Assembly (NCBI GenBank): GCA_964036045.1
Contig: OZ038378.1
Location: 45,162,639 to 45,226,638 of the forward strand
Direction: 5' to 3'
DNA: 64,000 nt
Origin: Eutreptiella sp. 'Long Island Sound 2002'
Lineage: Eukaryota; Euglenozoa; Euglenophyceae; Eutreptiales; Eutreptiaceae
Shown here: piece by piece, positions 5,980 through 26,633 of the stretch
Position numbering within the stretch: the first letter of the stretch is position 1
How the letters are laid out: the number at the start of each line of letters is the position of its first letter
Made by a program: the position numbers and the translations under genes
Notes under the pieces: generated by a model
The model's input: the letters and a program-made list of their open reading frames with translations, nothing else
Told to the model about the DNA's origin: nothing
The model's database searches: none

Positions 5980-6000
5980 TTGAGGTTTGAGGTTTGATTT
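5980..6000 (-). repeat. Heptamer tail at the 3' end of element 2
   Basis: On the sense (minus) strand the element ends with about two and a half copies of the heptamer TCAAACC just before the target duplication. Many APE-type LINEs (I, R1-like and others) end in short tandem repeats instead of poly(A), made by slippage when reverse transcription begins. The complement, TTTGAGG, is only loosely like plant-type telomere repeats, and I make no telomere claim. Confidence 0.75.
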
Positions 6001-6034
6001 TGCGGGTACTAGACGCCTTTCGGCCCCGGGGGGC

Positions 6035-6053
6035 CACCTGGTCGGGCCAGGTG
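6035..6053. other. Perfect 7-bp hairpin near the 3' end of element 2
   Basis: CACCTGG (6035-6041) and CCAGGTG (6047-6053) are exact complements around a 5-nt loop, about 55 bp from the 3' end. G/C-rich complementary runs on either side (GGCCCC/GGGGCC near 6023-6034 and GGGCCC repeated near 6069-6083) could add further stems. LINEs whose RT recognises the 3' UTR use terminal stem-loops for this, so it is a candidate RT-recognition structure. Confidence 0.5.
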
Positions 6054-9000
6054 ATATCCTCCCCACCGGGCCCTAGTGGGGGGCCCTCCAAGACGCACCT
6101 CCTGCCTGGTGGCGGAGTCCCCCGGGTTCACAGAGCTCGGAGCCCCGTCCTTCCCCGGCGTCCCCGTTTCGCCACTCCCCGGTCAGTGCATCAATTCGCA
6201 GCCGTGGCTGCAGGCGCTTACCCACTGCGTCGCCCCCCTAATGCGTGGTCGCCCGGGGCGCCGGCGCCGCCGGGCCCGTGCTACTCGCTTGTCGCCAGTG
6301 GGACCCCCTTGGGCTGGCGCGGAGGCTGCTTAGCCTAGGGGTTGGGGCGTGGCGCTGTGCGCCACTACTGCCTTGGCGGGTGCAGTGTCCCGTCTGTGTG
6401 TGCGCGGCGCTCGCGGCCGGTTCGGGGGGGTCCGGGCCGGTACCTGGTGTTGTGTCTCCCCTTCTTCCCCCTTCCCGCCCCGCGTGTTCCGCGCTGCGTG
6501 TGGCGGGCCGTCCCGTCCGGGTGTCCCTTATCCTCGCTCGCTGGTACGCCATTCCATGCGGTCTGTGCGTTCCGCGCGCTCGGTCCGGTTGCCCTTCTGG
6601 TGGTCCCCGCGTGTCCTTTTCGTGTGTGTGCGCTCGCGCTCTCGCGGTGTCCGCTCCCCGCTGGGTGGTGAGGCGCGCGCATCTCGCGTGGTCCCGGCAC
6701 TGGGCGCTGGTAGGGCCGTTCCATGTGGTCCGTGCCCCTCCGCGTGTCCTGCCCCGGTCCCGTGCTCCGTCTGGCGTGCTTGGGGGGGGGGGGTCCGGTC
6801 CCGGTTCCCCCCTACTTGGCTTGGGGTTGTGGGGGCGGCAGCTGGGCGTCCCCGGGGGGGTGCCTTCGACCGTTGCGTGGGGCGTTCGGGGTCTTGCGCT
6901 CCTCTTCCCCCGACTGCCCGTCCACTGGGTGGGCTGTTGGGGTCTGCGTTGTGGGCGCGGGCGTGCGGTTGTGGGGGCCCCGCTCTGTTCCTGTGGGGGG
7001 GGGGGGGAGGTGTCGACTTGGTGTCCAGGCGCCGGTCCGCCGGATTCCCATGACGAGCCCGATGCGCACGGAGCTTCGCCCTGCGGGATGCGTGGGGGGG
7101 TTGGGGTGACCGTCGCTGGAGTGGTGCACCAATGTTCCGGTTCATGGCCCAGCAGAGCACCCCTACCGCGGGCTTACTCTTAGCACAGGGGGAGGGGGTT
7201 GCGGGCGCGTTTGTTCTGTGACCCGGGTGCCAGTGTATCTCAGAAGGCAGCCGCCCCGGAGGTAGCGCACCAGGCGCGCGCCGCGAAGGAGCTGGTTCGA
7301 ACCCCGTGATCGGTAGTCTCCCACCGATCTCCTCGAATACCGGACGAGGCCTCCCGTCGACCTGTTCGAGTACAGGTGACGGTGCGCACTGCTGCAGGGG
7401 TGGGTGGCTCCCATGTGTTTTGTTTTTCTGGGGTGGGGGGTAAAACGAACGAGACCTCCACCCGATCCACCGGTATCGGTGGTGGCGCGAGTTGCTGGAG
7501 GGGGGGGTGGTTCCCACGTCGCCAACTAGAGAGCTCTACATGCAGGGATCCCAGGAGCACCAACGCCTGGGATCGAACCCCCGCACTGGACGATTGAAGA
7601 CCGACGCTCTCACTACTGGGCCGCGGGAGTCTCTTACGCGACTTAGGGGTGTCGTCGGCTATGAATCCAGTCCCGAGGGTGGGGCTGTGCGTTGTGAAGC
7701 GTGTTGCGCGTGTCGGGAGGCCCCAGTCCACGTGCACGGGGTTGGGACAGGGGGGGAGGGGGCTGGTTGGGGTGCGGCACCGTCGGATCGCCGACTGACG
7801 TGCACAGGGGTAAGAGGCGGACAGTAGCACCGCCGGATCGCCGACTGACTGTAGGGCGGGGGGTCGCTCTGCCTCTTTCCGTCCCTCTGCCTTCCCTGGG
7901 CAGGCAACAAAGCGGGCGTCACTGGCGTTGTGCTGTCCATGGGGGGCCTGGCCCCCCATACCACTCCGGTTCGTGCTCACCCGGCTTCTCTGGGTACGAC
8001 CTGTGCGGCGTCCCGGTGCGCAGGCGTGGGCCCGCTTGTTCTTCGCGGCCCCCATGTGAGCCGGCGGCTGGAGCGGGGGGGCGGGTCACACTCCGGCTCC
8101 CCTCTCGGGTGGGGGGGGCCCATCCCCCCTGCCTCGGGGGGGTGTCGCGCCGCGGCCTCCCTGCTCTCGTTCCAGGCGGCGGCCTGCGGTACCCCTTTCC
8201 GGCTCTCTCCGTGTCGCTGGCGCGCTCCCTTCCGGCGCGCGCGTGCGGTCGGGGCTGAAATGCCGCCCCGGGGTGGGGGGGGTGAGGGGCGGCCCGTGGA
8301 CCGCTCCCCTGGGGGCCCCAGCTGACCTGCAAACCCCCCCTCTGTCCCCTCGGAGTGGGCTGTGGTTACGGGAGGGTCATGCGGGGCGCGGCCCCCTTCG
8401 TGTTCCGTTGTGCGCGTTGCTCCGGCACGCCGGTGTGGGTTCGCGGGAGCAGGTCCAGCCGCCGTTACCCTTACCGTGTCGCCGTTCCTCCTGTGGGTGG
8501 GGGCGCCCCCCCGGCCCTTGGGGGGCGGAGGGCCGCGCCTGTGGCTCCCCAGCTGGGGGGGGTGGGGGGGGCGCCCCCCCACCCGCTCTCGGGCCTGTGT
8601 GGGAGGGGGGGGGGGGAGTGGGGGGGGGCCTTTGGTCCCCTGACGATGCCTCCTGTCAGCCAGGGGGGTCGCGCCCTTCCCCCGCCCCCTCTACCGAGAG
8701 CCTGATTCTCACGCAGTCCCTCTCTGGGGCCCCTCATCCCCCGGCCGTTGTCGCGCGGCGCTGGCCGGCCGGGGGTGGCCGTGAGGGTTAGCGGTCAGTG
8801 GTTAGCGGGTTGCGGGGCAGCAGGTTTCCCCCCGCGTTTGTCGTCTCCGCACTCCCTCCCGCGGGAGGTGGCGCGCCGCTTTCCCTGGGCAGGCAAGAAA
8901 GCGGGCGTCACTGGCGTCGTGCTGTCCATTGGGGGCGTGGCCCCCCATACCGTTCCGGTTCGCGCCCACCCGGCTTCTCTGGGCACGATCTGCGCGGCGT

Positions 9001-10075
9001 CCCGGTGCGCAGGCGTGGGCTCACTTGTTCTTCGCGGCCCCCATTTGAGCCGGCGGCTGGGGCGGGGGGGCGGGTCACACTCCGGCCCCCCTCTCGGGCG
9101 GGGGGGGTCCATCCCCTCTGCCTCGGGGGGTGGGGGCCGGGGCCCCTGCGGCTGGCGGGCCGGTGGGGGGGCGGGGTGGGGGGGGTGTCGCGCCGCGGCC
9201 TCCTTGCTCTCGTTCCGGGCGGCGGCCTGCGGTACTCCTTTCTGGCTCTCTCCGTGTCGCCGGCGCGCTCCCTTCCGGCGCGCGCGTGCGGTCGGGGCTG
9301 AAGTGCCGCCCCGGGGTGGGGGGGGTGACGGGCGGCCCGTGGACCGCCCCCCTGGGGGCCCCATCTGACTTGAAACCCGCCCTCTGTCACCTCGGAGTGG
9401 GGTGTGGTTACGGGAGGGTCATGTGGGCCGCGGCCTCCTTCCTGTTCCGTTGTGCGCGTTGCTCCGGCACGCCGGTGTGGGTTCGCGGGAGCAGGTCCAG
9501 CCGCCGTTGCCCTTATCGCGCCGCCGTTCCTCCTGAGGGGGGGGCGCCCCCCCGGCCCTGGGGGGGCGGAGGGCCGCGCCTGTGGCTCCCCTGCTGTGGT
9601 GGGTGCGGGAGGGGGGGGCTGGGGGGGCCGCCCCCTCGCCCGCCCTCGGGTCTGTGCGGGGGGGGGGTGGGTTGGGGGGGGCCCTTTGGTCCCCTGGCGA
9701 TGCCTCTCGTCGGCCGGGGGGGAGGGGCGGGGGCGGCATGGCGGTCGTGGCCCCGGGGGCCAGCCATCGGCCAGGGGGTCGCGCCCTTCTCCCGCCCCCC
9801 CTATCGAGAGCCGGATGCTCGCGCAGGCCCTCGCCGGGGCCCCTCATCCCTCAGCCGTTGTCGCGCGGCGCTGGCCGGCCGGGGGTGGCCGTGAGGGTTA
9901 GCGGTCAGTGGTTAGCGGGTTGCGGGGCAGCAGGTTCCTTCCCGCGCTCGTTGTCTCCGCACTCCCTCCCGCGGGAGGTGGCGCGCCCTCGTACGCCGTG
10001 CCATACCGTGGGGGGGGCGTGGGTCGGGGGGCCCATCCCCCCCTCCCAACCCTTCCGTACCCGCCGTCTGGGCCT
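6054..10075 (-). other. Long 3' UTR of element 2
   Basis: This is about 4 kb between ORF5 and the 3' hairpin. The sense strand is strikingly poor in U and rich in C and G, so long stop-free frames arise on that strand without protein-like content. It includes two stretches with tRNA-like Pol III box motifs (7240-7315 and 7530-7650), a short direct repeat containing GGATCGCCGACTGAC (about 7786 and 7832), and a ~1-kb tandem duplication (7880-9990). I see no gene here. Confidence 0.6.
7880..9990. repeat. Tandem duplication of ~1 kb in the element 2 3' UTR
   Basis: The sequence from about 7890 (CCCTGGGCAGGCAA...) recurs from about 8882 with scattered substitutions and indels. The block near 8760-8877 (ending in CCCGCGGGAGGTGGCGCGCC) recurs at 9868-9987. 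The first unit is about 0.99 kb and the second about 1.1 kb, because it has an extra G-rich insert near 9130-9190 and another near 9700-9760. Both units contain long G runs. The duplication is non-coding and probably arose within the element or its ancestor. Confidence 0.85.
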
Positions 10076-12208
10076 TCACTTGCGCCGCCGCTTGTGTGGG
10101 GGCTGGGGCTGCGGCGGCGGCGGGTTGTGCCGGCGGTAGCGCCAGTGGGCGAGGGCGCTACGCAAAGCCCGGGGGAGCCAGTTGTTGGCGTCCGCATCCG
10201 TGATGCGGAGCACCGCTCCCCCTTCCAGGAAGGCCGGCCACGTCGGCTCCCTGTCGGGCCACGCCGCCCGGATCACTGACCTGAAGACCCTCTCGTGGTC
10301 CTCTGGGGCCGCCCACCCCCCCGGGGGTGCCTCTCGGTTTCCTCCGTCCCTCCGGAGGAGCACGGCATCGAAGGGCCGGTTCCGCGACCTCCTGGAGGTC
10401 CCCTGGTTGGCCCAGCACAACCACCCGTACACTTCCCCCACCAGGGGGAGGGTCTCCCCCCCCAGCGGGTCCGGGACCGCGCCCCAGTCCCGGTCCCATG
10501 GCCGGCCCTCCTCCGCCCCCCGTGCCGGCCCCCCTCGCTGCCCCTGCGCCTGCGGCGCCGATGCCACGACCCGTCCCCCCTCCGCCGAGGCCATCCGCGC
10601 CGGCTCCGCCCTCGGCGCGGGGGGGGCTTGCTGGTGCTGGTGTCGTGGGGGTTGGGGGGGGACGAGCTCGCCGGCGTCAGGGTCGATGTTGTACAGGTGG
10701 TGGTGGTCGTGGTGGTGGTGGTGGTGAGTGTGGTGTGCCGGCATCTGTTGGATGCCGGGGGGGATGCACCTCACCGGCTGCACGTCCGGCTGCGGGGGCG
10801 CTCCGCCCTCTGCCCCCCTCCCTTCGCCCTGCCCTCCTCCCCGGGCTCCCATGCCCCGTCCCGCCTGTCCCTTGGGGCCCGCGGCGCCCTTGCCCTTGCC
10901 CTTGGGCCCCTTTCCAGTCCCATGCCCGTGTCGCGGGTCCCGCCTCTCGTCCCCCACGCCCTGGCCCGCTCGCTCTCCCATCCCCCCTCGTCCTGCCCCC
11001 TGCACCTGGGTACCCTTCCCGCGCCCCTGAGCGCCCTTCCCGTGCCCTGGCCCCTCCCCGGCCCCCTGCCCGTGTCGCGGGTCCCGCCTCCCGTCCACCA
11101 CGCCCTGGCCCGCTCGCTCTCCCACCTCCCCTCGCCCCGCCCCCTGCACCTGGGCTCCCTGCCCGCGCCCCTGCGCGCCCTTCCCGTGCCCTGACCCCTC
11201 CCCTGCCCCCTGCCTGTCGCGCCGTCCGCTGCTCCCCTCCCCCCCGCCGCTGCGCCCTTCCTGGACCACTCGCCGGGCGTCCCGCTGCCTTTGCAGTTGC
11301 GGCAGCGTGACGCCCGGCGGCGAGCGCTCGCGCGTCGGGGGGCGGACGTGCCGCTCCCGCCCCGGGGGGAAGGGCTTGGGGGGGTACGGCTTGGGGGGGC
11401 TGGTGTGGGTGTGGGTGGGGTTGGCGTGGGCGCGGTACTTTGCGCTCTCCCTGCCCACTGCTGCTGCTGCGGCGGCCGCCGGCGAGGCGCCCGCGGCCCG
11501 TGCGGGGTTCTTCCCCCGCTTGCGCGGCGTGCTGGGGGCCGCGGCGTGGCCGGCCGAGGCGGCGTCGCGGCCTGCCGGGGTCGCGGCCGCAGCCCCCCGC
11601 GCGCCCTCCTCGCTCTCCTTCGGTGCCGTGGCGGCCGCCGACGAGGCGCCCGTGGCCGCGGTCGCAAACCCTCGCACGCCCTCCTCGTTCTCCTCTGCTG
11701 CCGCGGCGGCCGCCGGCGAGGCGCCCACGGCCCGTGCGGGGTCCGTCGCAACCCCTCGCGCGCCCTTCTTGCTCTCCTGTGCGGCTGCGGCAGCCCTCGG
11801 CGATGCGTCCGGCTCCTGCGCCGGGGCTGCCCCCCTTGTCGGCGGCGTGCCGGGGGCCGCGGCCGGGGCCGCGGCGTGGCTCGCCGCGGTCACTGCCTCC
11901 TGCGCGTCTGGGCGGGGGGGGGCGGCGGGGCTGGCTGCTTGGGCGGCGGGGGCGGCCGTCTCGGCTAGCCCAGGTTCCCGGGCCGGCGGCGGCGGCCCGA
12001 CCAGCACCGCCGCCTCCGCCAGCCTCCGCTCCTCGCGCTCCGCGAGGGTCCCCCCCGTCCACTCCGGGGAGGAGACGGGGGAGCGGGAGCGGGACCGGCG
12101 GTGGTGGCGGTCGTCCCGCTGGAGGGACCCATCGGAGTCTGCCATCACTGTTACTCTGGTAGGCAGGCGTGGTGGCAGGCGCGCCCTTCCCACTACCTCC
12201 TGGTGCAT
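10076..12208 (-). CDS. Element 2 ORF5: low-complexity basic protein with a conserved-looking C-terminus
   Basis: This is a 710-codon frame from the ATG at 12208, which overlaps the ORF4 stop as TGATG. A second ATG lies at 12145. The N-terminus has an SR-like run (HHRRSRSRSPVSS). Next come Ala-rich repeats built on ASPAAAAA...EEGARG, then a Gly/Arg/Gln-rich part with a 48-residue tandem repeat (DNA about 10924-11211, unit 144 bp), and a His run (HHTHHHHHHDHHH, coded by a GTG/CAC microsatellite near 10700). The last ~150 residues are ordinary protein sequence (GWLCWANQ, FDAVLLRR, HERVFRSVIRAAW) and may form a folded domain of unknown type. The basic, SR-like composition suggests RNA binding, but no family was recognised. 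Element 3 gives no comparison because its homology stops before this ORF. Confidence 0.55.
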   Translation of the reverse strand: MHQEVVGRARLPPRLPTRVTVMADSDGSLQRDDRHHRRSRSRSPVSSPEWTGGTLAEREERRLAEAAVLVGPPPPAREPGLAETAAPAAQAASPAAPPRPDAQEAVTAASHAAAPAAAPGTPPTRGAAPAQEPDASPRAAAAAQESKKGARGVATDPARAVGASPAAAAAAEENEEGVRGFATAATGASSAAATAPKESEEGARGAAAATPAGRDAASAGHAAAPSTPRKRGKNPARAAGASPAAAAAAAVGRESAKYRAHANPTHTHTSPPKPYPPKPFPPGRERHVRPPTRERSPPGVTLPQLQRQRDARRVVQEGRSGGGEGSSGRRDRQGAGEGSGHGKGAQGRGQGAQVQGAGRGEVGERAGQGVVDGRRDPRHGQGAGEGPGHGKGAQGRGKGTQVQGAGRGGMGERAGQGVGDERRDPRHGHGTGKGPKGKGKGAAGPKGQAGRGMGARGGGQGEGRGAEGGAPPQPDVQPVRCIPPGIQQMPAHHTHHHHHHDHHHLYNIDPDAGELVPPQPPRHQHQQAPPAPRAEPARMASAEGGRVVASAPQAQGQRGGPARGAEEGRPWDRDWGAVPDPLGGETLPLVGEVYGWLCWANQGTSRRSRNRPFDAVLLRRDGGNREAPPGGWAAPEDHERVFRSVIRAAWPDREPTWPAFLEGGAVLRITDADANNWLPRALRSALAHWRYRRHNPPPPQPQPPHKRRRK
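10924..11211. repeat. 144-bp tandem repeat inside ORF5
   Basis: Two adjacent copies of a 144-bp unit (about 10924-11067 and 11068-11211) differ at a few positions. Because 144 is a multiple of three, the duplication adds 48 in-frame residues (GHGKGAQGRG...RRDPRHGQGAGEG) to ORF5. Keeping the frame is weak evidence that ORF5 is translated. Confidence 0.75.
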
Positions 12209-12210
12209 CA
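12206..12210 (-). promoter_or_regulatory. TGATG stop-start overlap of ORF4 and ORF5
   Basis: On the minus strand the ORF4 TGA (12210-12208) shares its last base with an ATG (12208-12206) opening ORF5. This arrangement is characteristic of coupled translation by termination-reinitiation between adjacent LINE ORFs. No copy in the window allows a conservation test. Confidence 0.5.
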
Positions 12211-13430
12211 GTGCCGTGCCGTGGGCAGTGCCGTGTGGTGCTCTGCGGGGGGGAGGGGGGGAGGGGGTGGGGGGCCGGCTGTGGCGTCAGCCCCGCACGG
12301 CCGGGGGCCCGCGGCCATCCACCGGCATTGGGAGGGGAGGCGGGGGAGCCACGCGGCCCACGCGTCGCGCCACAGCTCCCAGTCTGGGGCGGGGCCCAGG
12401 GCCCTGGGCCCCCGGGGGTCGTCGAGCGGTGTCGGGGGCAGCCGCACCAGGTGGACCCCCGTAACGGCGGTGACCTCCTGTGTGCGCAGGAAGGTGTGTA
12501 CTCCGTCCCGCGCCGCGGGCGCCGGGAGGGGGGGGCGGGGTACGGGTGTGGCCCCATAGAGGTGGGTGGGGGTAATCCCCAGGATCCGCCCCAGGCTCCC
12601 GCGGGTCGCGACGACGAGGAGGAGGAGGGGGGTGCCAGGGCACTCTTGCCAGAGGACCTGCCCCCTGTGGTGGGCACCCCTGGTCCTGGAGAGGGGGGGG
12701 GACAGGTCTGGGCTAGCCCAGCCGCGGGGCGCGTGCGTCGCCGGTGGGGGGGCGGGGCACCAAGTGGGCTCCCTGGGGAACGCCTCGTAGACGACGGCGT
12801 ACGGGGGGGTAGGCCCGGTGCCGTCATACACCGGGTTGGTCGGCCGGGGGCGGGCGGACGCCTCGTCCGCGCCTTCCACGAACACCGTGACCTCGCCCAC
12901 CTCCAGGTCCTCGTCCGGCGGGTGTAGAAGGTGGAGCGCCGCATCCAGCTCGGACACTCCCCCCGGGTACGTGGCCCGCGCCTGGTTCAGGTACGGGGCC
13001 GCGTCCCCGGGGTAGCGCGTCCTGAGGGCGTGCAGCAGGGCTGGGGCGCTACTGCGGAGGGACATGGCAGACCCCGCTCCCGTCAGCCGGAGGGTGTCCC
13101 CCATGGACCCGACCGATTGGACTCGCGCCACTCCATCCAGTGCCCGTAGAGGGCCGCTTCCGGGCTGATGAGCCCCGGCCGGATGGCGTTCACGATCCGG
13201 TGCATTGCCGGGAGCAGCGTAGGGGCCCCCGCTCCGTTCAGGGCGCGGACGGCCGGGAGGGCGGTCTCGTTGAGGAAGGCCCTCGCACTGCCCTCCGGGT
13301 CGCACCGTGCGGCAGCGTGCGCTTCTTTTGCCTCCGCCACCGCGTCCGCCACCAGGCCCCGGACGGCCGCCTCCTGCGCTCTGCGGCGGGCCCTGGTGTG
13401 CCCCGGCCCATCCCCCCGTCGGCGTGGCAT
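12208..13430 (-). CDS. Element 2 ORF4: unrecognised protein, frameshifted
   Basis: The ATG at 13430 (MPRRRGDG...) is also present at 30473 in element 3, which supports the start. The protein begins basic, then has an Ala/Glu helix-rich part (AVRGLVADAVAEAKEA) and a stretch ending ALYGHWMEW. Near 13105 element 2 lacks 10 nt that element 3 has (between TCGGG and TCCATG), which moves it out of frame. The downstream frame (MGDTLRLTGAGSAMSLRSS...) is open to the TGA at 12208. Without the deletion the protein would be about 410 residues. The later part has VTVFVEGADEA and Pro-rich stretches. I recognise no domain. Coding is supported by the similar protein in the element 3 copy. Confidence 0.5.
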
Positions 13431-16462: not shown

Positions 16463-19400
16463 TCACGCCACGTCCGCGTTAGGCTCTTGGTGCTCGCTTT
16501 CCGCGAGTACGTCGCGGAGGATGTACATGAGGGCCGCTGGCGGGTGGTACGCCGCCCCCCGCGTGGGGGGGGACAGGCCGTCCCGGCGGCGGTAGCCCCC
16601 GACGTGGAGGTGCAGGCCGTCCGGGGTCACCCGTGGGCCGGTGTGGGCGTCCTGCTTAGCCCTCGTGGGGTGGACGAGTCTCAGGCGGGGGTCCCGTGTG
16701 CCGGTGGTGTGGAAGAGGTGGGCCAGGGCGTCGCGCCACCCGGGGTGGTTGGTGGGCTCCTGCTCACGGCGGCAAAAATGGAGGTGTTCATCGGCGCATT
16801 GGTTGAGGCACTCCCGCACCGCCGCCGGCCACGGATCGTCGTTGTCGGGGAAGGGGTGGCGTGGCCCGTGGTGCCCATTCCACGGCGTTGTGTGTGGCAC
16901 CGTCAGGCGGCACGTGTCGCGGTGTCGCAGCTTGGCGGTGCGCAGCGTGACGATTTTGCCCGGCGGGGACTGTAGTTGGACATGAGCCGCCCTGGGGCAC
17001 GCGATGGGGTTGTACATCCCCACTCCCAGGGCGGCCAGGGCCCGGGGTATGCGGTGGACCCAGTCGCCTCCCGCCAGAGTTGCGAACTCCGGGACGGGGT
17101 AGTGCACCTCGGGACATATTCCGTGCGCGCCGGCTATCTCCCAGAACATCTTGGTGACCTCGGCGCGCACGGAGGTTGCGCGGTGGTGGACGAGTGTACC
17201 CACGCGGGCCACCGCTGCCTGCTGGCATCGCGTGGGCACCCGTGTGAGCCCCAGGGGCCGGTCAACCTGCAGGCTGTCCCGCGAGGCGTCGAAGGCGTAC
17301 CGCGCCCTGTCCTTCGCAACCTGGACCGTGATGTGGTCCAGGTGGCGTGCAGTGTCAGAGTCCTCGGCGATGAAAGGGGCGACATACTGCGTCACCCCTC
17401 CGAGGATCGCCAAGATGACGTCCTGCACCACTTTTGGTGGCGCGAGGGTGTTAAGGCACCAGTGGTGCACTGCCGCCAGGCGTAGCCGGTGCTTGCGCTG
17501 CAGGGAGAACTCCCCGTCCGGCTGAAGCTGGAGTCCCAGGTAGGGGACGGAGTCCGCCGCTGGTACCCAGTACCACGGGTTTTCCAGGTGGGGGCAGAGG
17601 CGCAGCTGCAGGCCCGGGACCCCCTCCGTGGTGGCCATGGCGCACTTGCGGGGGTTGAGCTCCATGCCCATCATCCCCAGGTACGCGGCCAGCGCCTCCA
17701 CGCCCTCGACGAAGTGCTGCAGCGTGTGGGCCACCACCAGCAGGTCGTCGATATAGGCCTGGATGAGGCCGTGCTCGGCCCCTCTTGGCGGGCGCAGGCG
17801 GTGCCCCTGTGCCCTGAGCAGGGGCTCCAGGAGGAGCGCGTACAGCAGGGGGCTCTCGGGGTTGCCCTGCTGGACGCCGCGTAGCATGTAGACGGGCTGC
17901 GTTAGCCCGTGTGCTGTGACGATGCGCAGCCTGGCGCACGTGTGGAGGAAGAGCAGGATGTCAATGACGTCCGGCGGCACGGAGAGGTGGCGCAGGATGA
18001 GGTGGAGGGCGCCGTGTGGGGCGGTGTCGAAGGCCTTGCGGGCGTCAAAGGAGAAGACGTAGTTGGGCCTTCCCCGCTGGAGCTGCCGCTGCGCCATGAA
18101 CAGCGGGGGGCCTGTGTTAGAGCCAGGGAGGGCCCCCTGCTGCCAGTCGCTGACCACTCCGTGCCGTGTGAGCACCTCCGTGATGCGCTGGGTGAGGGGA
18201 CCCGTGAGCAGCTTCATGTCCAGCTGGCCCAGGGCTATGGGCCTGTAGTCGTCCAGTCTGGCAGAGCCCGGTACCTTGGGGCTGAGCCAGATGTGCGCGT
18301 CCCTCCAGTGCATCGGCGGCGGGGCGCCGCGGAGGATGGCCCGGTAGGAATGGACCAGGAGCCACTGGACGGGTGCCGGGAGGGCCTTGAGGAAGCGGGC
18401 CTCCACGTGGTTAGGACCTGGGGCCTTGCCATCGGCCTTGTCCAGGGCGGACTTCAGGTCCTGCATGGAGTACTGCTGGACCTGTGTCCAGGCCCCCTCA
18501 GGGACCCGGGGGACGTGGCGGCCGAGGACCGCCTGGAAACCCGGGAGGTCCACCGGGCGTTTGTCATACAGTTCTCGCCAGAAGGCGCGAACTGCGAACA
18601 TCACGTCGTGGGCCTCGGTGAGGAGCGTTTGGGTGTTGGGAACCCGCACGTTCCAGAGGCCTGACGGGCCTGGGGCCTCTACCTCTATGGCTCCCCGCAC
18701 GGCTTTCCATCGCTGGGCGATGTCGGGGGCGTGGCGGCGCCAGAAGTCCTTGATGGCGCGCTTGCGGTCTGCCGCCAGGAGGGCGCGGAGCCGGGGAATG
18801 TCCTCCTCGAGGGTGGCTGCTTGCCTCTCCAGCTCCTCCTGTAGCTGGCCCTGCGTGGTCGGGCGGAACCCGGGCGACACACCCTGCAGTTCCTCCGTGA
18901 GCCGGAGCGCCGCCTCGGACCGGATGCCATGCCTGGCCGCGTCCGCCTGGTACGCTGCCGGGGCGCGCGCTGCCAGGGTGTCATAGCGGAGGACCGCTGC
19001 CTGGAGCTGCTTTCCGCTCTCCGGGAGGTCCCCCTCCGCCAGGTCCGTTCCCGCCGGGGACGGCTGCCGGCGTCCCACCACGCCCGCCAGGGCGTCATGC
19101 GTCGCGTGGAGGTGTTCGAACACCTTGTCCACCGCGGCCGCGGGCATGGACCCGTAGTCGTGCTGCTCTGCGGGACCCAGCCAGGGCGCCAGGGAGGGTT
19201 CATCCTGCGCGGCGGTGACCGCCGCCCACAGGCAGTGTTGGACGGGCGCGGCCTCGGCGTCGTACGGGAGGAGGCGGCCCTCCGTGTGGCTGTAGGGGGT
19301 GGGCATCGCCGCGCGCCCCGCTGCGCTGAGGAGACCCGGCAGGGCCAGGCGGACCGGGAGGTGGTCCGAGCCGACCACCTGGGGGTGTGCCATGCCGCGA

Positions 19401-20167
19401 GCCCAGACGCTTTCCCGCAGCGTCCACGGCAGGAGGGGCTCATTGGCCAGGAAGGTGTCCACCCTGTGCTGGGACGGGTGGAGCGTGGGGGTCATGTCCT
19501 CCTCGCCGCCTGCCGCGGCTCTTCGGAAGCCGCAGGCCTCCCAGCCCGCTCCGAAATGCTCCGTGGCCGGGTTGGCGGGGACATCCATGTAGATGTTGGT
19601 GTCGCCGGCGATGACCACCGGGTGCCTCCCGCCGAGGCTGCGTGCCGTGGCATACATTTGTATGTCGGCCCAGAACGCCGCCCGTCCCGCCCACGGGGAG
19701 CAGCCTGCTTGCGGCCCGTGGACGTTGATGAGGGTGAGGCCTCCCCCGTCCGTGCGGATCTCCAGGGCCGCGGCCTTCCCGGGGACAATTTCCGTGAAGC
19801 TGAGCACCTCGTGCTCCGCCACGTACTTGCTGCTGACCGCGGTGAGGAGGCCCCCCCCTCTCGAGGTGGAGGTGGCCCCCGTCTCCGCCAGCCGGCTGCT
19901 GAAGTAGGCGGTGTACCCCTTGTCCCGGAGCGCCGCGGCCACGTGCATCTCCTGCGCCCTGGTGGCGATCCCCGTTTCCTGGAGTATGATGGCAAAGCCC
20001 CCCTCCTGGGGCAGCATGCCGGTGATGAGGTGCTCCTTGTCGGTGCAGGCCGCCGGCCCCCGGCGCCGCCGGAGTGTGTCCCGGAGGGACTGGTCTGGCG
20101 GCACTAGGCCGTTGCGCAGGTTCCACGAGAGGAGCCACAGGGCGTTGCCCGTCGTGTCCTCCTGGAG
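16463..20167 (-). CDS. Element 2 ORF2: APE-type endonuclease and reverse transcriptase
   Basis: This frame begins right after the ORF1 UGA, in the same phase, and has no ATG before the endonuclease core. EEP motifs in order: LLSWNLRNG (metal-binding Asn), LQETGIATR (Glu), LTLINVHGP, VIAGDTNIYMD, HRVDTFLANE and VVGSDHLPVRL (Asp-His), all canonical. RT motifs follow: DDYRPIAL, FSFDARKAFDT (A), RGVQQGNPESPLL (B), QAYIDDLLVVA (C, YIDD intact), NPRKCAM (D) and VPYLGLQL (E). The endonuclease would nick target DNA and the RT would copy the element RNA from the nick (target-primed reverse transcription). Every catalytic residue I can check is present. It ends in TGA where element 3 has TGG, so it was originally continuous with ORF3. 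Length is about 1,234 codons. Confidence 0.93.
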   Translation of the reverse strand, partial: LQEDTTGNALWLLSWNLRNGLVPPDQSLRDTLRRRRGPAACTDKEHLITGMLPQEGGFAIILQETGIATRAQEMHVAAALRDKGYTAYFSSRLAETGATSTSRGGGLLTAVSSKYVAEHEVLSFTEIVPGKAAALEIRTDGGGLTLINVHGPQAGCSPWAGRAAFWADIQMYATARSLGGRHPVVIAGDTNIYMDVPANPATEHFGAGWEACGFRRAAAGGEEDMTPTLHPSQHRVDTFLANEPLLPWTLRESVWARGMAHPQVVGSDHLPVRLALPGLLSAAGRAAMPTPYSHTEGRLLPYDAEAAPVQHCLWAAVTAAQDEPSLAPWLGPAEQHDYGSMPAAAVDKVFEHLHATHDALAGVVGRRQPSPAGTDLAEGDLPESGKQLQAAVLRYDTLAARAPAAYQADAARHGIRSEAALRLTEELQGVSPGFRPTTQGQLQEELERQAATLEEDIPRLRALLAADRKRAIKDFWRRHAPDIAQRWKAVRGAIEVEAPGPSGLWNVRVPNTQTLLTEAHDVMFAVRAFWRELYDKRPVDLPGFQAVLGRHVPRVPEGAWTQVQQYSMQDLKSALDKADGKAPGPNHVEARFLKALPAPVQWLLVHSYRAILRGAPPPMHWRDAHIWLSPKVPGSARLDDYRPIALGQLDMKLLTGPLTQRITEVLTRHGVVSDWQQGALPGSNTGPPLFMAQRQLQRGRPNYVFSFDARKAFDTAPHGALHLILRHLSVPPDVIDILLFLHTCARLRIVTAHGLTQPVYMLRGVQQGNPESPLLYALLLEPLLRAQGHRLRPPRGAEHGLIQAYIDDLLVVAHTLQHFVEGVEALAAYLGMMGMELNPRKCAMATTEGVPGLQLRLCPHLENPWYWVPAADSVPYLGLQLQPDGEFSLQRKHRLRLAAVHHWCLNTLAPPKVVQDVILAILGGVTQYVAPFIAEDSDTARHLDHITVQVAKDRARYAFDASRDSLQVDRPLGLTRVPTRCQQAAVARVGTLVHHRATSVRAEVTKMFWEIAGAHGICPEVHYPVPEFATLAGGDWVHRIPRALAALGVGMYNPIACPRAAHVQLQSPPGKIVTLRTAKLRHRDTCRLTVPHTTPWNGHHGPRHPFPDNDDPWPAAVRECLNQCADEHLHFCRREQEPTNHPGWRDALAHLFHTTGTRDPRLRLVHPTRAKQDAHTGPRVTPDGLHLHVGGYRRRDGLSPPTRGAAYHPPAALMYILRDVLAESEHQEPNADVA

Positions 20168-20170
20168 TCA
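20168..20170 (-). promoter_or_regulatory. Conserved in-frame UGA between ORF1 and ORF2 (readthrough candidate)
   Basis: Sense reading is GAT AGC TGA CTC CAG. The downstream frame is in phase and stays open. The essential EEP Asn (SWN) lies 16 codons past the stop, and the first in-frame ATG comes only near 20020. Element 3 has GAT GGC TGA CTC CAG at 40258-40256 with the same arrangement. UGA-C, and UGA-CU in particular, is a leaky context, so a gag-pol-like fusion by readthrough is the simplest way to make active endonuclease. Confidence 0.65.
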
Positions 20171-23100
20171 GCTATCCCGCATCGGCATCGCCGCCGGGTT
20201 CGCTGGTGCCGCCAGGGCATCTGGGTGCGCAGCATCCGCTGAGCCCGTTCCCAGCGGGGCCCACAGGGGGGCCCGGGGGACCGGGGGAGCCAGGGGGGCC
20301 AGGGGGGCCAGCCCCGCGGGGATGGACATGGACCCTGGTGGGGCCACACCGCCGGCCCCCGGGGCCGCTCCGGGTGCCTCCTCACCTCCATCTGCGTGGT
20401 CGGCTGCCTGGGGCGGGGGGCGCCGGGTGTACGGGGCGTGCCACGGGGACCTCCGTGCTCTCCCCTGCAGGATGTTGGCGGCCGCCTCCTTGTCGTCCGC
20501 CGGGGCCGCAGCGTGCACCGCGTGCCACGCCAGGTGTTCCAGCATCGCCCCGCTGGTGTAGTACTTGTCCGCACACAGGGAGCATTTCGTCGGCTCCGTG
20601 GCCCCTCGCGCCGGGGGGAGCTGCACCGACTTCCGAATGGCGCCCTCCGCCGCTGGTTCGAACGGCAGGTTGGCCAGCGTCACCGTGTGTGGTGCCAGCG
20701 TGCGGCCCGGGGCCGCCGCATCGAGGGCTCGCGTCGCGGGGGCGGGTCCGAGGCCTCGGGCGGCATCGCGCTGCGCGTCTGCTTGCAGCCCCGTTTGCCA
20801 GTGCATGGAGCCGATTTGGCGGTCGGGTTTGCCCCTCCATCGCAGGTCGTGGAAGGCCTGTAGCCAGTGGTACACCGCGGTCGGGACCGCCAGCTGGAGC
20901 TCCAGGTCGGCGGGGTGCGCCGCTGCCGGCCACACTCCCGGCCTCGCCGCCCGGGCGTTGTCCTTCAGCCTGACCTGGAGCAGGAGGGCGTGGTGTTCGC
21001 CCTCCCGCAGCGCCTTGATGATCATGCGGGTGCAGTCTGCCACGCGGATCACGGCTTCGGGCCCCGGCAGGCGTTCGGGGTCGCAGACGACGATGTGCGC
21101 GTCCGCCGGGCTGAACATGCAGACCACCCACTGTGGGTTCTGCTGTCCCCGTTGGGCCACCGCCAGGGTAGCCGCTGGGCGGGCGTGCGTGATTGGCCCC
21201 GCGTGGAGGTCCGGGACGTCCGTGGCCCTGATGGCGTCTCCCTGCCACGCGGCCCGTAGATGCTCCTCCTGGTCGGGGCTCCACACCAGTGTGGGGGGGT
21301 TGACCCACCCCGGTTCCTGCCTCTTGTTGGGGGCGCTGACAGTGTGTAGCAGGACCGCCAGCGGCCAGGGGTCCGCCGACATATAGTAGGCCTGGGTGGG
21401 CCCCTGTCGCCAGTCGACGTGGGGCAGGGGCGGGAAAGCCCCCTGCCTGGCAGTGCTGTGCCAGACCGTCCATCGGCCTCCGGCCAGGACGTGCGACCGG
21501 TACCCTCCGGCGTGGCCGTGTATGATGGCTTGGTAGCCTGCCGTCTGCAGTACCAGTGCCTCCCCCTGCTTAGGCCCGGGCGGGGGTGCGCCATCGCCCG
21601 CACCCCAGACGCGGGTGCGCCCTCGGAGTGTGGCATGCCACGGGTCTGGTGCATCGCGCTGAGGCCCTTGTATGCATCCCGCAATTTGCGCCGGGCCGTG
21701 GTGGTCGACGAAGCTTTCCCCGCCGTCTGCTAGCATTGCCGCCGCGACGACGTATAGTTGCTCCGCCGTGAGGGGTGCCGTCGGCTCGTGCCTCGCGGCC
21801 GGCCGTCGGGGCCGCGTGTCGCGGCAGGGGACGTGGGGCAGCAGTTGCGCCGGCCACGCCGCCACTGGACCCATGGTGACGGCCGCGACCACGGACGCCA
21901 GCACCGTGCGGTCCGTGGGTCTGTACTGCCGGAGTCCCGTGGTATCTCGGGTGAGGTGCCTGCAGGCTGCCATCCAGGCCACCGCTCCGCAGTTCGTGCA
22001 GTCCGGTTCGGCACCACCCGCGTCGTCGCCTCCCCTTTGCTGTACCGTGGTGGCGGTGTCGAGCGGGGGGCCCCGCTGTAGCGCCTCCGGGCCCTGCCCC
22101 GGCGGGAGGGCGGGCGGGATTGGCTGCGGGTAGTTTTGCGCGCCTCGGCGCTCCGGGTGCGTGTGGTACGGGTTTTGCCGGCGGTGTTCCGGGGCTGCCC
22201 GTGGCTGGAAGAGGAGTTGGTGCAGGTACCAGTGGCCCTCCGCGGTGGACGGATTGCGGAGCGTTAGCCACTGTTCCACCACGCCTCCTGGGTGCGCGGC
22301 CTCGACGCGGCGCTGCAACCCCAGGCGGCCTAGGCGGTTGGACGTGCCCGCGGGTGGGATGTGTGCTTGCGGGTAGAGCACCCGCAGCGGCTCCAGCGCC
22401 AGGTCCAGCACTTCGTCGTTGAGCTGCTTCGTGAGGGCCGACGCCCTGTGTAGGGCGTGGAGGACCCCGGGTGTGGGGGCCGTGAGCTGTTCGAGCACCG
22501 GTCCCGGCGGGTACCGCGTACCCGGGTTCGTTAGCCACTCCCTGGTGTGGCTCAGTACGGCCTTCCACACGTCCCTTGTAAAGGCGTGCGGGGGGGCCAA
22601 AGAGGGGACCATCCGTAGGAGGCGGTGGCACGCCGGCGGCGATCGCATGGGCTGTGGGGCGGCCGCCGTGATCGACCTGCACGCCGTGCCGGGCACGATC
22701 GCCCCCCATTCCACGGTCCCCATGCCCTCGGCGTGGATCAGCGCCTGGCCTTGGACCATGGGGAAATAGGGGCTCGAGTGCCCCTTCCCTTCCTTCCACC
22801 GTACCCAGGCGGCCCCCGCCTGCAGGCTGCGGAGCAGGGCCACGCCGGGGAGGAGCGGCTGCGGGAAAGCCCCCTTGACGGCCTGGGTGACGTGAGCCAA
22901 GGTGCCCATGGGCAAGTACCACAACGGGAGGGTCCAGGGGCCCGGCAGCGGTTGCGCCACCCCTGCGTCCCATCGCCACTCGGAGTCTGGCGGGGTGGCC
23001 GGGACCGTGCCCGTCTGCAGGAAGTGGCGTGTCTGCTTGTCGGGGTGCCGTGGGAGGGTTGCCGCGAGACTGAGCCCCTCTGCCGCTGGTGCCACCGGGA

Positions 23101-23863
23101 GGCCGCCCCGGGGCCTGCGCCAGGGGTATTCCTGGTCGGCCGGGCAGGTGCGGAGGTCCCGGGCGATGTCCTCCGCGGTCCCTGTGGGGGCGTCCTCTGG
23201 TGCCAGGTGCCACATGACGGCGAGCACCGCCCATGTGGAAAAGGGCCACGCCCGCGGGGGGGTGTACACCTGGATGGTCCACTGTCGGCACGCCCCCCGC
23301 ACGCGGGACGCGTGGAGCACCCCTCGGACCATGTCCGCCGCGAGGACCAGCACCATTCCCGAGGGATCCACAATGATCCCCTCTGCGGGTCCACCGTGGC
23401 GGCCCCGGGTGTGCAAGGCCACTGCCGCCTGTCCCGCGTGGGTGACTCGGTCGACGGCCTCCTGGATGTTCACGCTGCCGCGCGCGGTCTCATCCAGGAT
23501 CCAGCCCTGCGCCACCCCGTAGCGTAGGGCGGCGCGTGAGGCCGCGGGTTTCACCTGGGGCAAAGCTCCGTCATCGGGGCCGGGCTGGGGGTGCTGTTTG
23601 GGGCACCAGCCTTCGCCGGTGCAGTGGCCCCGTTTCCACGCGGGGCAGATCGCGGGTACGCTGCCCGCCGGCGGCGCAGGTTCCGCGGGCGCGCCTCCCG
23701 TGGGGGGCTCCGGCAATGCCTCCAGGTCGGAGTCCGTGCCCGCGTCCCCTTGTGGGGGGTCTCCTTCGCCGTCTCTGAGTCCCAGCGCCCTGATGACCTC
23801 GTGTGCTTCGTCCAGCGTCCGAGATCGGGGGCGTGTCTTGCGTGGTGCCGCGGGTTCCGCCAT
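20168..23863 (-). CDS. Element 2 ORF1: large protein with CCCH and C2H2 zinc fingers
   Basis: I start it at the ATG at 23863 (MAEPAAPRKTRPRS), which is conserved in element 3 at 43909. An upstream ATG at 23968 lies in the non-conserved leader. Length is 1,231 residues, far longer than usual LINE ORF1 proteins (300-600). Near residue 75 CPAWKRGHCTGEGWCPKQH fits the CCCH finger spacing (x7, x5, x3). Near residue 1110 CSLCADKYYTSG...HLAWH is a C2H2 finger. A middle CTNCGAVAWMAACRHL may be a further metal site. The N-terminus is basic and the C-terminus is Pro/Ala-rich. By analogy with other ORF1 proteins it should bind element RNA, but the 800-residue middle resembles nothing I know. It ends at the conserved UGA discussed separately. 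Confidence 0.8.
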   Translation of the reverse strand: MAEPAAPRKTRPRSRTLDEAHEVIRALGLRDGEGDPPQGDAGTDSDLEALPEPPTGGAPAEPAPPAGSVPAICPAWKRGHCTGEGWCPKQHPQPGPDDGALPQVKPAASRAALRYGVAQGWILDETARGSVNIQEAVDRVTHAGQAAVALHTRGRHGGPAEGIIVDPSGMVLVLAADMVRGVLHASRVRGACRQWTIQVYTPPRAWPFSTWAVLAVMWHLAPEDAPTGTAEDIARDLRTCPADQEYPWRRPRGGLPVAPAAEGLSLAATLPRHPDKQTRHFLQTGTVPATPPDSEWRWDAGVAQPLPGPWTLPLWYLPMGTLAHVTQAVKGAFPQPLLPGVALLRSLQAGAAWVRWKEGKGHSSPYFPMVQGQALIHAEGMGTVEWGAIVPGTACRSITAAAPQPMRSPPACHRLLRMVPSLAPPHAFTRDVWKAVLSHTREWLTNPGTRYPPGPVLEQLTAPTPGVLHALHRASALTKQLNDEVLDLALEPLRVLYPQAHIPPAGTSNRLGRLGLQRRVEAAHPGGVVEQWLTLRNPSTAEGHWYLHQLLFQPRAAPEHRRQNPYHTHPERRGAQNYPQPIPPALPPGQGPEALQRGPPLDTATTVQQRGGDDAGGAEPDCTNCGAVAWMAACRHLTRDTTGLRQYRPTDRTVLASVVAAVTMGPVAAWPAQLLPHVPCRDTRPRRPAARHEPTAPLTAEQLYVVAAAMLADGGESFVDHHGPAQIAGCIQGPQRDAPDPWHATLRGRTRVWGAGDGAPPPGPKQGEALVLQTAGYQAIIHGHAGGYRSHVLAGGRWTVWHSTARQGAFPPLPHVDWRQGPTQAYYMSADPWPLAVLLHTVSAPNKRQEPGWVNPPTLVWSPDQEEHLRAAWQGDAIRATDVPDLHAGPITHARPAATLAVAQRGQQNPQWVVCMFSPADAHIVVCDPERLPGPEAVIRVADCTRMIIKALREGEHHALLLQVRLKDNARAARPGVWPAAAHPADLELQLAVPTAVYHWLQAFHDLRWRGKPDRQIGSMHWQTGLQADAQRDAARGLGPAPATRALDAAAPGRTLAPHTVTLANLPFEPAAEGAIRKSVQLPPARGATEPTKCSLCADKYYTSGAMLEHLAWHAVHAAAPADDKEAAANILQGRARRSPWHAPYTRRPPPQAADHADGGEEAPGAAPGAGGVAPPGSMSIPAGLAPLAPLAPPVPRAPLWAPLGTGSADAAHPDALAAPANPAAMPMRDS

Positions 23864-23959
23864 TGCTGTGTCGCTGTGTCTAAGAGCAGGGGGTGGGGTG
23901 CGGATGTCCCGTGGCTGGTGCGTTGGTGCGCTGGTGCGTTGCTCGGTGTGGTGGTGGTG
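23864..23959 (-). promoter_or_regulatory. Leader between monomer array and ORF1 of element 2
   Basis: This is a short non-repeated link. Its ORF1-proximal half (containing the plus-strand run AAGAGCAGGGGGTGGGGTGC) is shared with element 3 at 43925-43950. The array-proximal half differs and contains a GGTGGTGGTGG run. It corresponds to the tether between promoter monomers and coding region in monomer-type LINEs. Confidence 0.6.
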
Positions 23960-26345
23960 GATGGGCATCCCCGGGGGGGCGCTTTCCAGCGTTGCGAGGG
24001 GCGTCCGGTGTTAGGCGCTGTCCCTCCCCCGGCCGCTCGTCCTCCGGAGCGTGCAGCCAGGGTTCCGCGACCCGTGTGTCCCGGGTGCGGTCGATGCGGG
24101 CGTGTGGACCCAGCACCGGCCCCACAGCGTGCGCCCTTGCGGGCCAGCGTTGCTCGCTGTGGGAGTGGCGGAAGGGCGTCCCCGGGGGGGGTGCCTTCCA
24201 CCGTTGTGAGGGGCGCCTGGTGTCGGGCGCTGTCCCTTCCCCGGCCGCTCGTCCTCCGGAGCGTGCAGCCAGGGTTCCGCGACCCGTGTGTCCCGGGTGC
24301 GGTCGATGCCGGCATGTGGACCCAGCACCAGCCCCACAGCGTGCGCCCTTGCGGGCCGGCGTTGCTCCCTGTGGGGGTGGCGGAAGGGCGTTCCCGGGGG
24401 GGGTGCCTTCCACCGTTGTGAGGGGCGCCTGGTGTCAGGCGCTGTCCCTTCCCCGGCCGCTCGTCCTCCGGAGCGTGCAGCCAGCTTTTCGCGGCCCGAG
24501 TGTCCCGGGCGCGGTCGATGCGGGCGTGTGGACCCAGCACCGGCCCCACAGCGTGCGCCCTTGCGGGCCGACACTGCTCGCTGTGGGGGTGGCGGAAGGG
24601 CGTCCCCGGGGGGGGTGCCTTCCACCGTTGTGACGGGCGCCTGGTGTCAGGCGCTGTCCCTTCCCCGGCCACTCGTCCTCCGGAGCGTGCAGCCAGGGTT
24701 CCGCGACCCGTGTGTCCCGGGTGCGGTCGATGCGGGCGTGTGGACCCAGCACCGGCCCCACAGCGTGCGCCCTTGCGGGCCGGCGTTGTTCGCTGTGGGG
24801 GTGGCGGAAGGGCGTCCCCGGGGGGGGTGCCTTCCACCGTTGTGAGGGGCGCCTGGTGTCAGGCGCTGTCCCTCCCCTGGCCGCTCGTCCTCCGGAGCGT
24901 GCAGCCAGGGTTCTGCGACGCGTGTGTCCCGGGTGCGGTCGATGCGGGCGTGTGGACCCAGCACCGGCCCCACAGCGTGCGCCCTTGCGGGCCGGCGTTG
25001 CTCGCTGTGGGGGTGGCGGAAGGGCGTCCCCGGGGGGGGTGCCTTCCACCGTTGTGAGGGGCGCCTGGTGTCAGGCGCTGTCCCTTCCCCGGCCGCTCGT
25101 CCTCCGGAGCGTGCAGCCAGGGTTCCGCGACCCGCGTGTCCCGGGCGCGGTCGATGCGGGCGTGTGGACCCAGCACCGGCCCCACAGCGTGCGCCCTTGC
25201 GGGCCGACGCTGCTCGCTGTGGTGGTGGCGGATGGGCATCCCCGGGGGGGGTGCCTTCGACCGTTGTGAGGGGCGCCTGGTGTCAGGCGCTGTCCCTTCC
25301 CCGGCTGCTCGTCCTCCGGAGCCTGGGGCCAGGGTTCCGCGACCCGTGTGTCCCGGGTGCGGTCGATGCGGGCGTGTGGACCCAGGACCGGCCCCACAGC
25401 GTGCGCCCTTGCGGGCCGGCGTTGCTCGCTGTGGGGGTGGCGGAAGGGCGTCCCCGGGGGGGGTGCCTTCGACCGTTGTGAGGGGCGCCTGGTGTCAGGC
25501 GCTGTCCCTCCCCCGGCCGCTCGTCCTCCGGAAGGTGCAGCCAGGGTTCTGCGACCCGTGTGTCCCGGGTGCGGTCGATGCGGGCGTGTGGACCCAGCAC
25601 CGGCCCCACAGCGTGCGCCCTTGCGGGCCGGCATTGCTCGCTGTGGGGGTGGCGGAAGGGCGTCCCCGGGGGGGGTGCCTTCCACCGTTGTGAGGGGCGC
25701 CTGGTGTCAGGCGCTGTTCCTCCCCCGGCCGCTCGTCCTCCGGAGCGTGCAGCCAGGGTTCCGCGACCCGCGTGTCCCGGGCGCGGTCGATGCGGGCGTG
25801 TGGACCCAGCACCGGCCCCACAGCGTGCGCCCTTGCGGGCCGGCGTTGCTCGCTGTGGGGGTGGCGGAAGGGCGTCCCCGGGGGGGGTGCCTTCCACCGT
25901 TGTAAGGGCCGCCTGGTGTCAGGCGCTGTCCCTCCCCCGGCCGCTCGTCCTCCGGAGCGTCCAGCCAGGGTTCTGCGACCCGTGTGTCCCGGGTGCGGTC
26001 GATGCGGGCGTGTGGACCCAGCACCGGCCCCACAGCGTGCGCCCTTGCGGGCCGGCGTTGCTCGCTGTGGGGGTGGCGGAAGGGCGTCCCCGGGGGGGGT
26101 GCCTTCCACCGTTGTGAGGGGCGCCTGGTGTCAGGCGCTGTCCCTCCCCCGGCCGCTCGTCCTCCGGAGCGTCCAGCCAGGATTCCGCGACCCGTGTGTC
26201 CCGGGTGCGGTCGATGCGGGCGTGTGGACCCAGCACCGGCCCCACAGCGTGCGCCCTTGCGGGCCGGCGTTGCTCGCTGTGGGGGTGGCGGAAGGGCGTC
26301 CCCGGGGGGGGTGCCTTCCACCATTGTGAGGGGCGCTTGGGGTCA
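23960..26345. repeat. 212-bp tandem monomer array (A type), 5' UTR of element 2
   Basis: A unit of exactly 212 bp repeats about 11 times. For example, the landmark CGGTCGATGCGGGCGTGTGG recurs every 212 bp from about 24090 to 26210, with few substitutions and no visible indels. The array ends at the element 5' tip on one side and at the ORF1 leader on the other. This matches the position and size of the tandem promoter monomers of mouse L1, so I infer a repeated Pol II promoter. Because 212 is not a multiple of three and stops are rare, many overlapping ~185-codon frames appear on both strands. They are not genes. Confidence 0.95.
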
Positions 26346-26633
26346 GGCGCTGTCCCTCTCCCGTCTGCCCGCCCACTGCTGGGTGGGTTGCCGGGGTTCG
26401 TTGGGTGTGTGCGGTGTGTGTGGTGTCTGTGCCGTGCGTGTCGTGGTGCGTGGTGCTGCTCTTCCCTTGGTCCTCCGGTGCTCCCCTCTCCGGTGTCTCG
26501 GTGCGGTGTTGTGCTCGCCGTGTGCCCGCCGTGTCCCCTCCCCTGTGTGCGCCCCTTGCTCGTTCGCTGGCTACCCCTTGTTCCTTTCGCGGCTTCGTTG
26601 CTCTTTACCCCTTCTTCTACCCCTCTCCCTGGC
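26346..26633 (-). promoter_or_regulatory. Unique 5' tip of element 2
   Basis: This ~290-bp segment between the array and the 5' target duplication is clearly homologous to 51371-51677 at the other array. Shared plus-strand landmarks are GTGTGGTGTCTGTGC, CGGTGCGGTGTTGTGCTCGCC, GGCTTCGTTGCTCTTTACC and CTCCCTGGC, in order. In sense it starts GCCAGGGAGA. Homology ends sharply at 26633, which is where the 16-bp duplication begins. It is probably the outermost transcription start region. Confidence 0.85.

Follow-up and report, generated by a model that had tools for sequence, protein, structure and literature searches.

A 20.65-kb insertion in the Eutreptiella genome is very probably a 5'-truncated copy of a giant LINE family

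What is the 20.65-kb insertion that occupies positions 5980 to 26633 of a 64-kb stretch (the window; 201-Mb contig OZ038378.1, positions 45,162,639 to 45,226,638) of the 2.28-Gb genome of Eutreptiella sp. 'Long Island Sound 2002', and is it whole? Long interspersed elements (LINEs) are usually 3-8 kb long, and an earlier reading of the letters alone (the sequence-only reading) had taken this one, which lies on the minus strand, for a structurally complete member of a giant, possibly undescribed LINE family. Here we call the insertion el1 and its two neighbours in the window el2 and el3. We consider it very probable that el1 is a decayed member, truncated at its 5' end, of a giant, many-copy LINE family with a full length of about 23-27 kb; the proposal of a giant, possibly undescribed family is thus supported, at a size larger than had been claimed, and the 20.65-kb unit is not a complete member of it. 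In full-length order, the element consists of a leader, a segment of ~270 bp, a variable array of 212-bp units, open reading frame 1 (ORF1), a TGA codon, ORF2, ORF3, a 3' untranslated region (3'UTR) and a (TCAAACC)n tail.

The bases between the two flanking duplications are a single LINE insertion. As had been proposed, the target duplication is perfect over 16 bp: with up to two mismatches allowed across the whole window, the 16-mer GGTGCCGTCATGCGGT is found only as exact copies at 5964-5979 and 26634-26649. Comparison of the junctions revealed no 17-mer common to both flanks, and a chance origin of the repeat was considered and rejected. Because its first three sense bases, ACC, could end a unit of the TCAAACC tail, the unambiguous duplication is 13 bp. 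When joined, the el1 flanks reunite pieces of an older LINE, family B, but we regard this as weak evidence of an empty site because the one long frame across the join passes by only a few codons. The element is a LINE (a non-long-terminal-repeat retrotransposon), having a LINE-type reverse transcriptase (RT), an APE/EEP endonuclease, variable target duplications, a constant tailed 3' end and no long terminal repeats (LTRs); in a self-comparison restricted to matches over 60 bp, no such repeat joins the ends of el1, and only a short array-like piece in the 3'UTR was seen.

The 3' end of el1 is a genuine family terminus. In a genome search with this end, the best 40 of 2,291 first-look candidates (which are not to be equated with copies) were scored, giving el1 and 39 other places, with matches extending 1-12 bases beyond the last element base of el1. 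Thirty of these places were taken as loci, el1's own included, and a readable (TCAAACC)n tail is present in 29 of them (el1 counted), with flanks that are distinct save for one pair; the search motif could not be located at the remaining locus, L027. The 3' ends of that pair, L016 (C12:1979292) and L017 (C12:1944229), lie 35 kb apart and have an identical flank, and because the flank is common to both, they probably reflect a segmental duplication rather than two insertions. Within the window, the self-comparison showed that el2 and el3 have only the array-like piece at 6828-6980 in common with el1 5980-12246. In 40 kb fetched leftward, el2 continues outside the window, from -6 to -4974, where several pieces, 78-90% identical, align it with el1 between 12257 and 5978, and it has the same 3' tip and heptamer tail. 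The heptamer tail had been put forward as the 3' limit, and the recurrence of this terminus at 29 of the 30 loci and in el2 bears that out; no copy ending between the frames formerly numbered ORF3 and ORF4 was seen in el2, in the copy C1b described below or among the 29 readable loci.

Is 26633 likewise a family end? A search with the 5' segment of el1 was handled in the same way (the best 40 of 1,373 first-look candidates scored, again not a count of copies); short pieces were fetched for 15 of the 39 scored places that are not el1 itself, and larger pieces were fetched at C15 and C9, two loci from the 3'-end list. All 15 further loci, C15, C9 and el3 share sequence upstream of el1's 5' limit, and therefore el1 is 5' truncated and 26633 is the truncation point. 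The shared stretch ends early in two of the 15, C3 (~90 bp, at that copy's own target duplication) and C1a (327 bp), and in el3 (~60 bp), and it reaches about 1.8-2.0 kb in C15, C9, C1b and C2. The first bases common to C15 and C9, ~1,832 nt above the end of el1 in C15 (~1.83 kb), are the family 5' end, and C1b starts 26 nt inside it. Thus, 5' ends are variable, those of el1, C3, C1a and el3 differing from that of C15 and C9, and el1 is without ~1.83 kb of 5' leader. The 5' tip that el1 was said to share with el3 had been offered as independent support; it is not independent evidence, because el3 itself continues ~60 bp past the corresponding base. Given the shared upstream sequence, the missing leader and the broken state of ORF2 and ORF3 (see below), "structurally complete" does not describe el1. 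These ends, duplications and the truncation are read directly from the DNA.

How long, then, is a full-length copy? We name copies by contig: C1a (C1:197467242), C1b (C1:197385547), C2 (C2:86395825), C3 (C3:13926303), C9 (C9:67349607) and C15 (C15:4034958). Both ends of C1a, C1b, C2 and C3 were among the scored search places, and C15 and C9 emerged from stretches fetched upstream of a 3' end; two others obtained likewise (L046 and L047) had no match to el1 over 150 bp. Computed from end coordinates and extents, the lengths of copies that reach or nearly reach the true 5' end are ~23.4 kb (C1b), ~26.4 kb (C2), ~27.4 kb (C15, part of whose extra length arises because its array exceeds that of el1) and ~23.1 kb (C9), and the 5'-truncated copies C3 and C1a measure ~22.7 and ~24.5 kb. 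Target duplications were found in five of the seven copies read at both ends: 13-16 bp in el1, 13 bp in C1b (CCAACAGCTAGGT), 15-16 bp in C2 (CTGACCGAGGCCCCAA), 12-14 bp in C3 and 81-82 bp, with one mismatch, in C15. C1b is the only copy read through most of its length (a 10-kb 5' piece was read in C15 and C9), and its 20 kb, read as one piece, are collinear with el1 through the array, ORF1, ORF2, ORF3 and 3'UTR, at 96.7-97.5% identity in long pieces. We hold with the same high confidence, and jointly with the account of el1 given above, that a near-full-length family member measures about 23-27 kb.

The three long ORFs, whose layout is a plain observation like the collinearity, together span about 13.6 kb. 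The giant ORF1 of the sequence-only reading stands: counted from an inner ATG, it has 1,231 aa, and its cluster, P0100, has 439 member sequences. A Pfam profile search found no known domain in it, and a ubiquitin-protease-like domain suggested by motifs read by eye was dropped, having no profile support. In ORF2, the claimed EEP and RT domains are both upheld by Pfam, the former as Exo_endo_phos (E 5.8e-7, above cut-off, with an SWN motif upstream of the listed start in the same frame) and the latter as RVT_1 (E 6.1e-22); PDB matches of the RT (E 1.2e-16 to 2.6e-12) are to chains named R2 retrotransposon protein, LINE-1 ORF2 protein and RT-like proteins. The two extra downstream ORFs that had been claimed are broken pieces of ORF2 and ORF3. 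In el1, ORF2 is interrupted by a TGA at 16463-16465 and by a frame change near 14,250; the frame at 14129-16423 corresponds to the latter half of ORF2, cut off by that TGA, which is absent from P0006 and from C1b (a copy with stops elsewhere). Similarly, 12208-13689 and 10076-12208 are one ORF that is open in P0197 and others, and P0197 (171 members) is the whole of ORF3, 1,104 aa, covering both of the last ORFs of the earlier reading. Substitutions between el1 and el3 favour third codon positions in ORF1 and ORF2, with differences by codon position of 105/87/176 in ORF1, 75/56/124 in ORF2 and 43/32/89 in the rest of ORF2. The el1-el2 counts for the former ORF4 (55/34/44) are without third-position bias, as would be expected if the frame listed for el1 is partly not the coding one.

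To which LINEs does this family belong? An N-terminal APE-type EEP domain, an RT and then RNase H-like and zinc motifs downstream would suit a member of a named RNase H clade (the I group or Dualen/RandI) that is merely very large, and we regard this as an evenly balanced proposition. An alignment of three rows, drawn from the el1 family and a second family 40% identical to it, keeps the RNase H-like D-E-D-H-D set invariant; P0059, the second family (1,283 cluster members, 41% identical), shows EEP and RT together with these RNase H-like motifs. The catalogue searches with the RT part and ORF1 scored only the ~8,000 candidates sharing most words (7,996 for the RT part), among which they gave 92 and 96 relatives, and the C-terminal part of ORF3 gave 93. 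All relatives but six have the source label "ena" and no name. What argues against a named clade is that these six (P0092-P0097, found with the RT part), which come from outside the host, are only 25-29% identical over 31-44% of the query among the 7,996 scored candidates, a sample in which distant kin may be missed, and that Pfam found no restriction-like endonuclease in the ORF2 pieces, a search that a divergent enzyme could escape. A search of viral contigs with the RT found no relative, own-genome records possibly having been left out of that search.

A further question is how ORF2 is expressed. In 10 of 10 copies read (el1, el3, C1b, C15, L071, L072, L074, L079, L080, which is C3, and L081, which is C2), ORF1 closes with TGA CTC, beyond which its frame continues unchanged into ...LWLLSWN, with R replacing S in L074; the six L-numbered copies come from 14 junction windows, of which these six aligned across, L077 did so in part and seven had no match. 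Our preferred reading, a possible one given this arrangement, is that ORF2 would be made as an ORF1-ORF2 fusion of about 3,460 aa by TGA readthrough. Alternatively, translation of ORF2 may begin internally or at a non-AUG codon, may follow by termination-reinitiation or may use a spliced RNA, a possibility that we place somewhat below an even chance. Such routes would be consistent with the position of the ORF2 frame directly after the ORF1 TGA, with an ATG just ahead of the EEP motif in L080 and P0040, with the pyrimidine-rich stretch ending in CAG that precedes the ORF3 ATG and with precedent, as PMC5972666 describes termination-reinitiation as established for the LINE SART1 and as a proposal for L1. 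They sit less well with two points: in 9 of the 10 copies (all but L080) no ATG separates the TGA from the EEP motif, and all 10 preserve the frame past the TGA. ORF3 is in the frame of ORF2, ~40 nt downstream, and then begins with an ATG (CACCATG in el1 and C1b, TACCATG in el2). The ORF2-ORF3 spacer (13430-13472, and 30473-30515 in el2) is pyrimidine-rich, ends in CAG and resembles a 3' splice site.

Several observations weigh against our account of the family and its proteins. The full length of C15, C2 and C9 rests on two ends at the right spacing. C9 and C1a, two of the seven two-ended copies, have no target duplication of at least 9 bp, and the repeat at C15 is unusually long (81-82 bp), with ~21 bp between it and the 5' end. 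In no copy were all three ORFs seen open together, el1 and C1b both being broken, and in three catalogue proteins (P0056, P0077 and P0184) ORF1 passes into EEP uninterrupted, so some copies lack the TGA. AlphaFold2 models had low-scoring outcomes, with a predicted local distance difference test (pLDDT) value of 28.7 for ORF1 residues 480-1080 (25 sequences) and 31.5 for the C-terminal part of ORF2 (14 sequences). Finally, the RNase H that had been claimed survives as a motif set invariant in two families, but it has no Pfam profile match in the ORF2 pieces and no PDB match for its region.

Other accounts of the element's extent (a complete element, a 3' transduction or a nested insertion) were all rejected. 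That the 20.65-kb unit is complete, with 26633 as the family 5' end, would suit the exact 16-bp duplication directly at 26634 and the el3 alignment that stops at 26633, but it is highly improbable in view of the upstream sequence shared by 15 of 15 further 5' loci, the two larger loci and el3, and the roughly 1.8-2.0 kb by which C15, C9, C1b and C2 reach further. Equally hard to credit is that the element proper ends after ORF2 or ORF3, the downstream 4-6 kb being a 3' transduction or nested insertion peculiar to el1, as might be thought from the single array-like match of el2 and el3 to 5980-12246 in the window: el2 is cut there by a family B LINE and its remainder beyond the window has the same 3' tip, which 29 of 30 3'-end loci also carry, the 171-member cluster has ORF3 whole, and C1b is collinear.

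Table 1. Features of el1 and its neighbours in the window
Feature	Coordinates	Strand	Basis
Target-site duplication, 3' copy (13 bp unambiguous; 16 bp including ACC common to tail)	5964..5979	.	Exact repeat search
3' terminal heptamer tail, sense CAAACCTCAAACCTCAA	5980..5996	-	Same (TCAAACC)n tail at 29/30 3'-end loci and el2
3'UTR, 4.1 kb, with ~1.1-kb tandem duplication 7889-8877/8878-9987	5980..10075	-	Self-comparison; el2 and C1b share pieces
ORF3, about 1,104 aa where open; frame changes break that of el1	10076..13430	-	Cluster P0197
ORF2 frame, about 2,230 codons (C1b coordinates): EEP, RT, RNase H-like, HCCC zinc motif	13473..20167	-	
ORF1, 1,231 aa, CCCH-like and C2H2-like Cys/His motifs (by eye)	20168..23863	-	Cluster P0100
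In-frame TGA (CTC next) between ORF1 and ORF2	20168..20170	-	Junction alignments
Array, 11.5 units x 212 bp, in 5'UTR; last bases overlap listed ORF start, upstream of inner ATG	23936..26363	-	
Unique 5' segment, ends at truncation point of el1	26364..26633	-	Comparison with upstream-extended loci
Target-site duplication, 5' copy	26634..26649	.	Exact repeat search
el2: part of second family copy; extends left of window to -4974, same 3' end	29282..32528	-	
el3: third, more diverged copy; ~419-bp-unit array; 3' part missing at 34754	34754..51737	-	

The noncoding parts of the element have features of their own. The family leader, ~1.8 kb, is A-rich and without a long sense ORF; in C15 (L064 from about base 552, L044 to base 383), it contains six copies of a short motif, approximately (A/G)GTATGTT. 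The promoter-like array of the sequence-only reading was confirmed as a tandem repeat of 11.5 x 212 bp, and because it lies ~2.1 kb inside the full-length element, a 5'-terminal promoter role is only a guess. A 3'UTR of 4 kb had also been described, and at 4.1 kb, shared in pieces with el2 and C1b, it holds good. Within the 3'UTR lies a piece of the 5' array monomer (6828-6980) in the same orientation, present in el2 too. ARAGORN calls a tRNA-Gly at 8103-8190 (+), antisense within the 3'UTR, which is probably due to chance because Rfam gave no match at gathering score there or anywhere else in the window.

Family B is a LINE, about 8.6 kb long, whose insertion in el2 runs from -5 to 29281 (window 1-5979 plus 26650-29281), and el1 is nested in it, between two family B ORFs. 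Its ends show an 11-bp repeat that is a low-complexity G run; it has an EEP profile match and, by eye, RT-like and zinc motifs, with no RVT profile match and no PDB match. An unidentified repeat lies at the 5' side of el2 (32528-33704) and again at about -12800 to -11605 (89%), and no target duplication of el2 was found at its 5' side by this repeat. The el3 array (44206-51447) has units of ~419 bp that resemble two ~210-bp units in tandem, compared with 212 bp in el1. A Ty3/Gypsy-type element at 56925-60840 has matches to RT, RNase H and a chromodomain, and weak ones to integrase. Further left, from about -34943 to -5692, two pairs of ~2.4-kb repeats (L009-L012) at 96-97% identity span ~13 and ~15 kb from outer edge to outer edge and have the appearance of two large LTR elements.

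How might so large an element move? From the anatomy we infer an account of its RNA, readthrough and enzymology, and any function of ORF3 or the array would have to be read in the same light. A single long sense RNA would be translated into ORF1, and some ribosomes would pass the TGA to yield the ORF1-ORF2 fusion. The EEP domain would nick target DNA, and the RT would prime at the heptamer tail and copy the RNA (target-primed reverse transcription); staggered nicks would create the target duplication, and incomplete copying would leave 5'-truncated insertions, el1 among them. Given dispersed 23- to 27-kb copies with target duplications, target-primed reverse transcription would therefore be able to copy >23 kb of RNA at once. 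If so, the limit on the cargo of LINE machinery is raised. Gag-pol-like expression becomes directly testable through the in-frame UGA between ORF1 and ORF2. Annotation tuned to short LINEs would fragment or overlook elements this large. Could this be the largest LINE so far? We find that plausible. The combined proposal, of the largest LINE family described, at about 23-27 kb, with a gag-pol-like ORF1-ORF2 fusion that arises when ribosomes read through a conserved UGA and with >23 kb copied per target-primed event, has in our judgment equal chances of being right and wrong. A literature search found no LINE near 23-27 kb; subscription journals were outside its coverage, so this is weak evidence of absence. 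In the accessible part of a review of giant transposons, the giants are LTR and Penelope-like elements, and LINEs appear only with regard to transduction (PMC6431247).

How does this family compare with known systems? Terminons, giant Penelope-like elements of rotifers, are likewise giant retroelements with extra ORFs; as described in the same part of that review, they have a Penelope-like RT, a telomeric location and hammerhead ribozyme motifs (PMC6431247). Here, by contrast, there are a LINE-type EEP and RT, dispersed insertions and, in the window, no Rfam match at gathering score. SART1 and L1 also need unusual translation of ORF2 after ORF1, SART1 having an overlapping stop-start and L1 a 63-nt spacer followed by the ORF2 AUG, according to the available passages of PMC5972666. 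The present family differs in its in-frame TGA, with no ATG in most copies read. Mouse L1 carries 5' promoter monomers, and in it, as in our family, a variable array of tandem ~200-bp units precedes ORF1; here the array is ~2.1 kb inside the element, behind a leader, and promoter activity is putative. APE-type LINEs with RNase H (the I group, Dualen/RandI and plant L1) have in common with this family the EEP, the RT, the RNase H-like motifs and an HCCC-type zinc motif, as well as target duplications and 5' truncation; Dualen and Zepp-like LINEs are described in Chlamydomonas (PMC8226300). In contrast to the 3-8 kb of described LINEs, this family extends to about 23-27 kb, and it differs further in a third ORF of 1,104 aa, in a TGA that separates ORF1 from ORF2 without a change of frame and in its heptamer tail.

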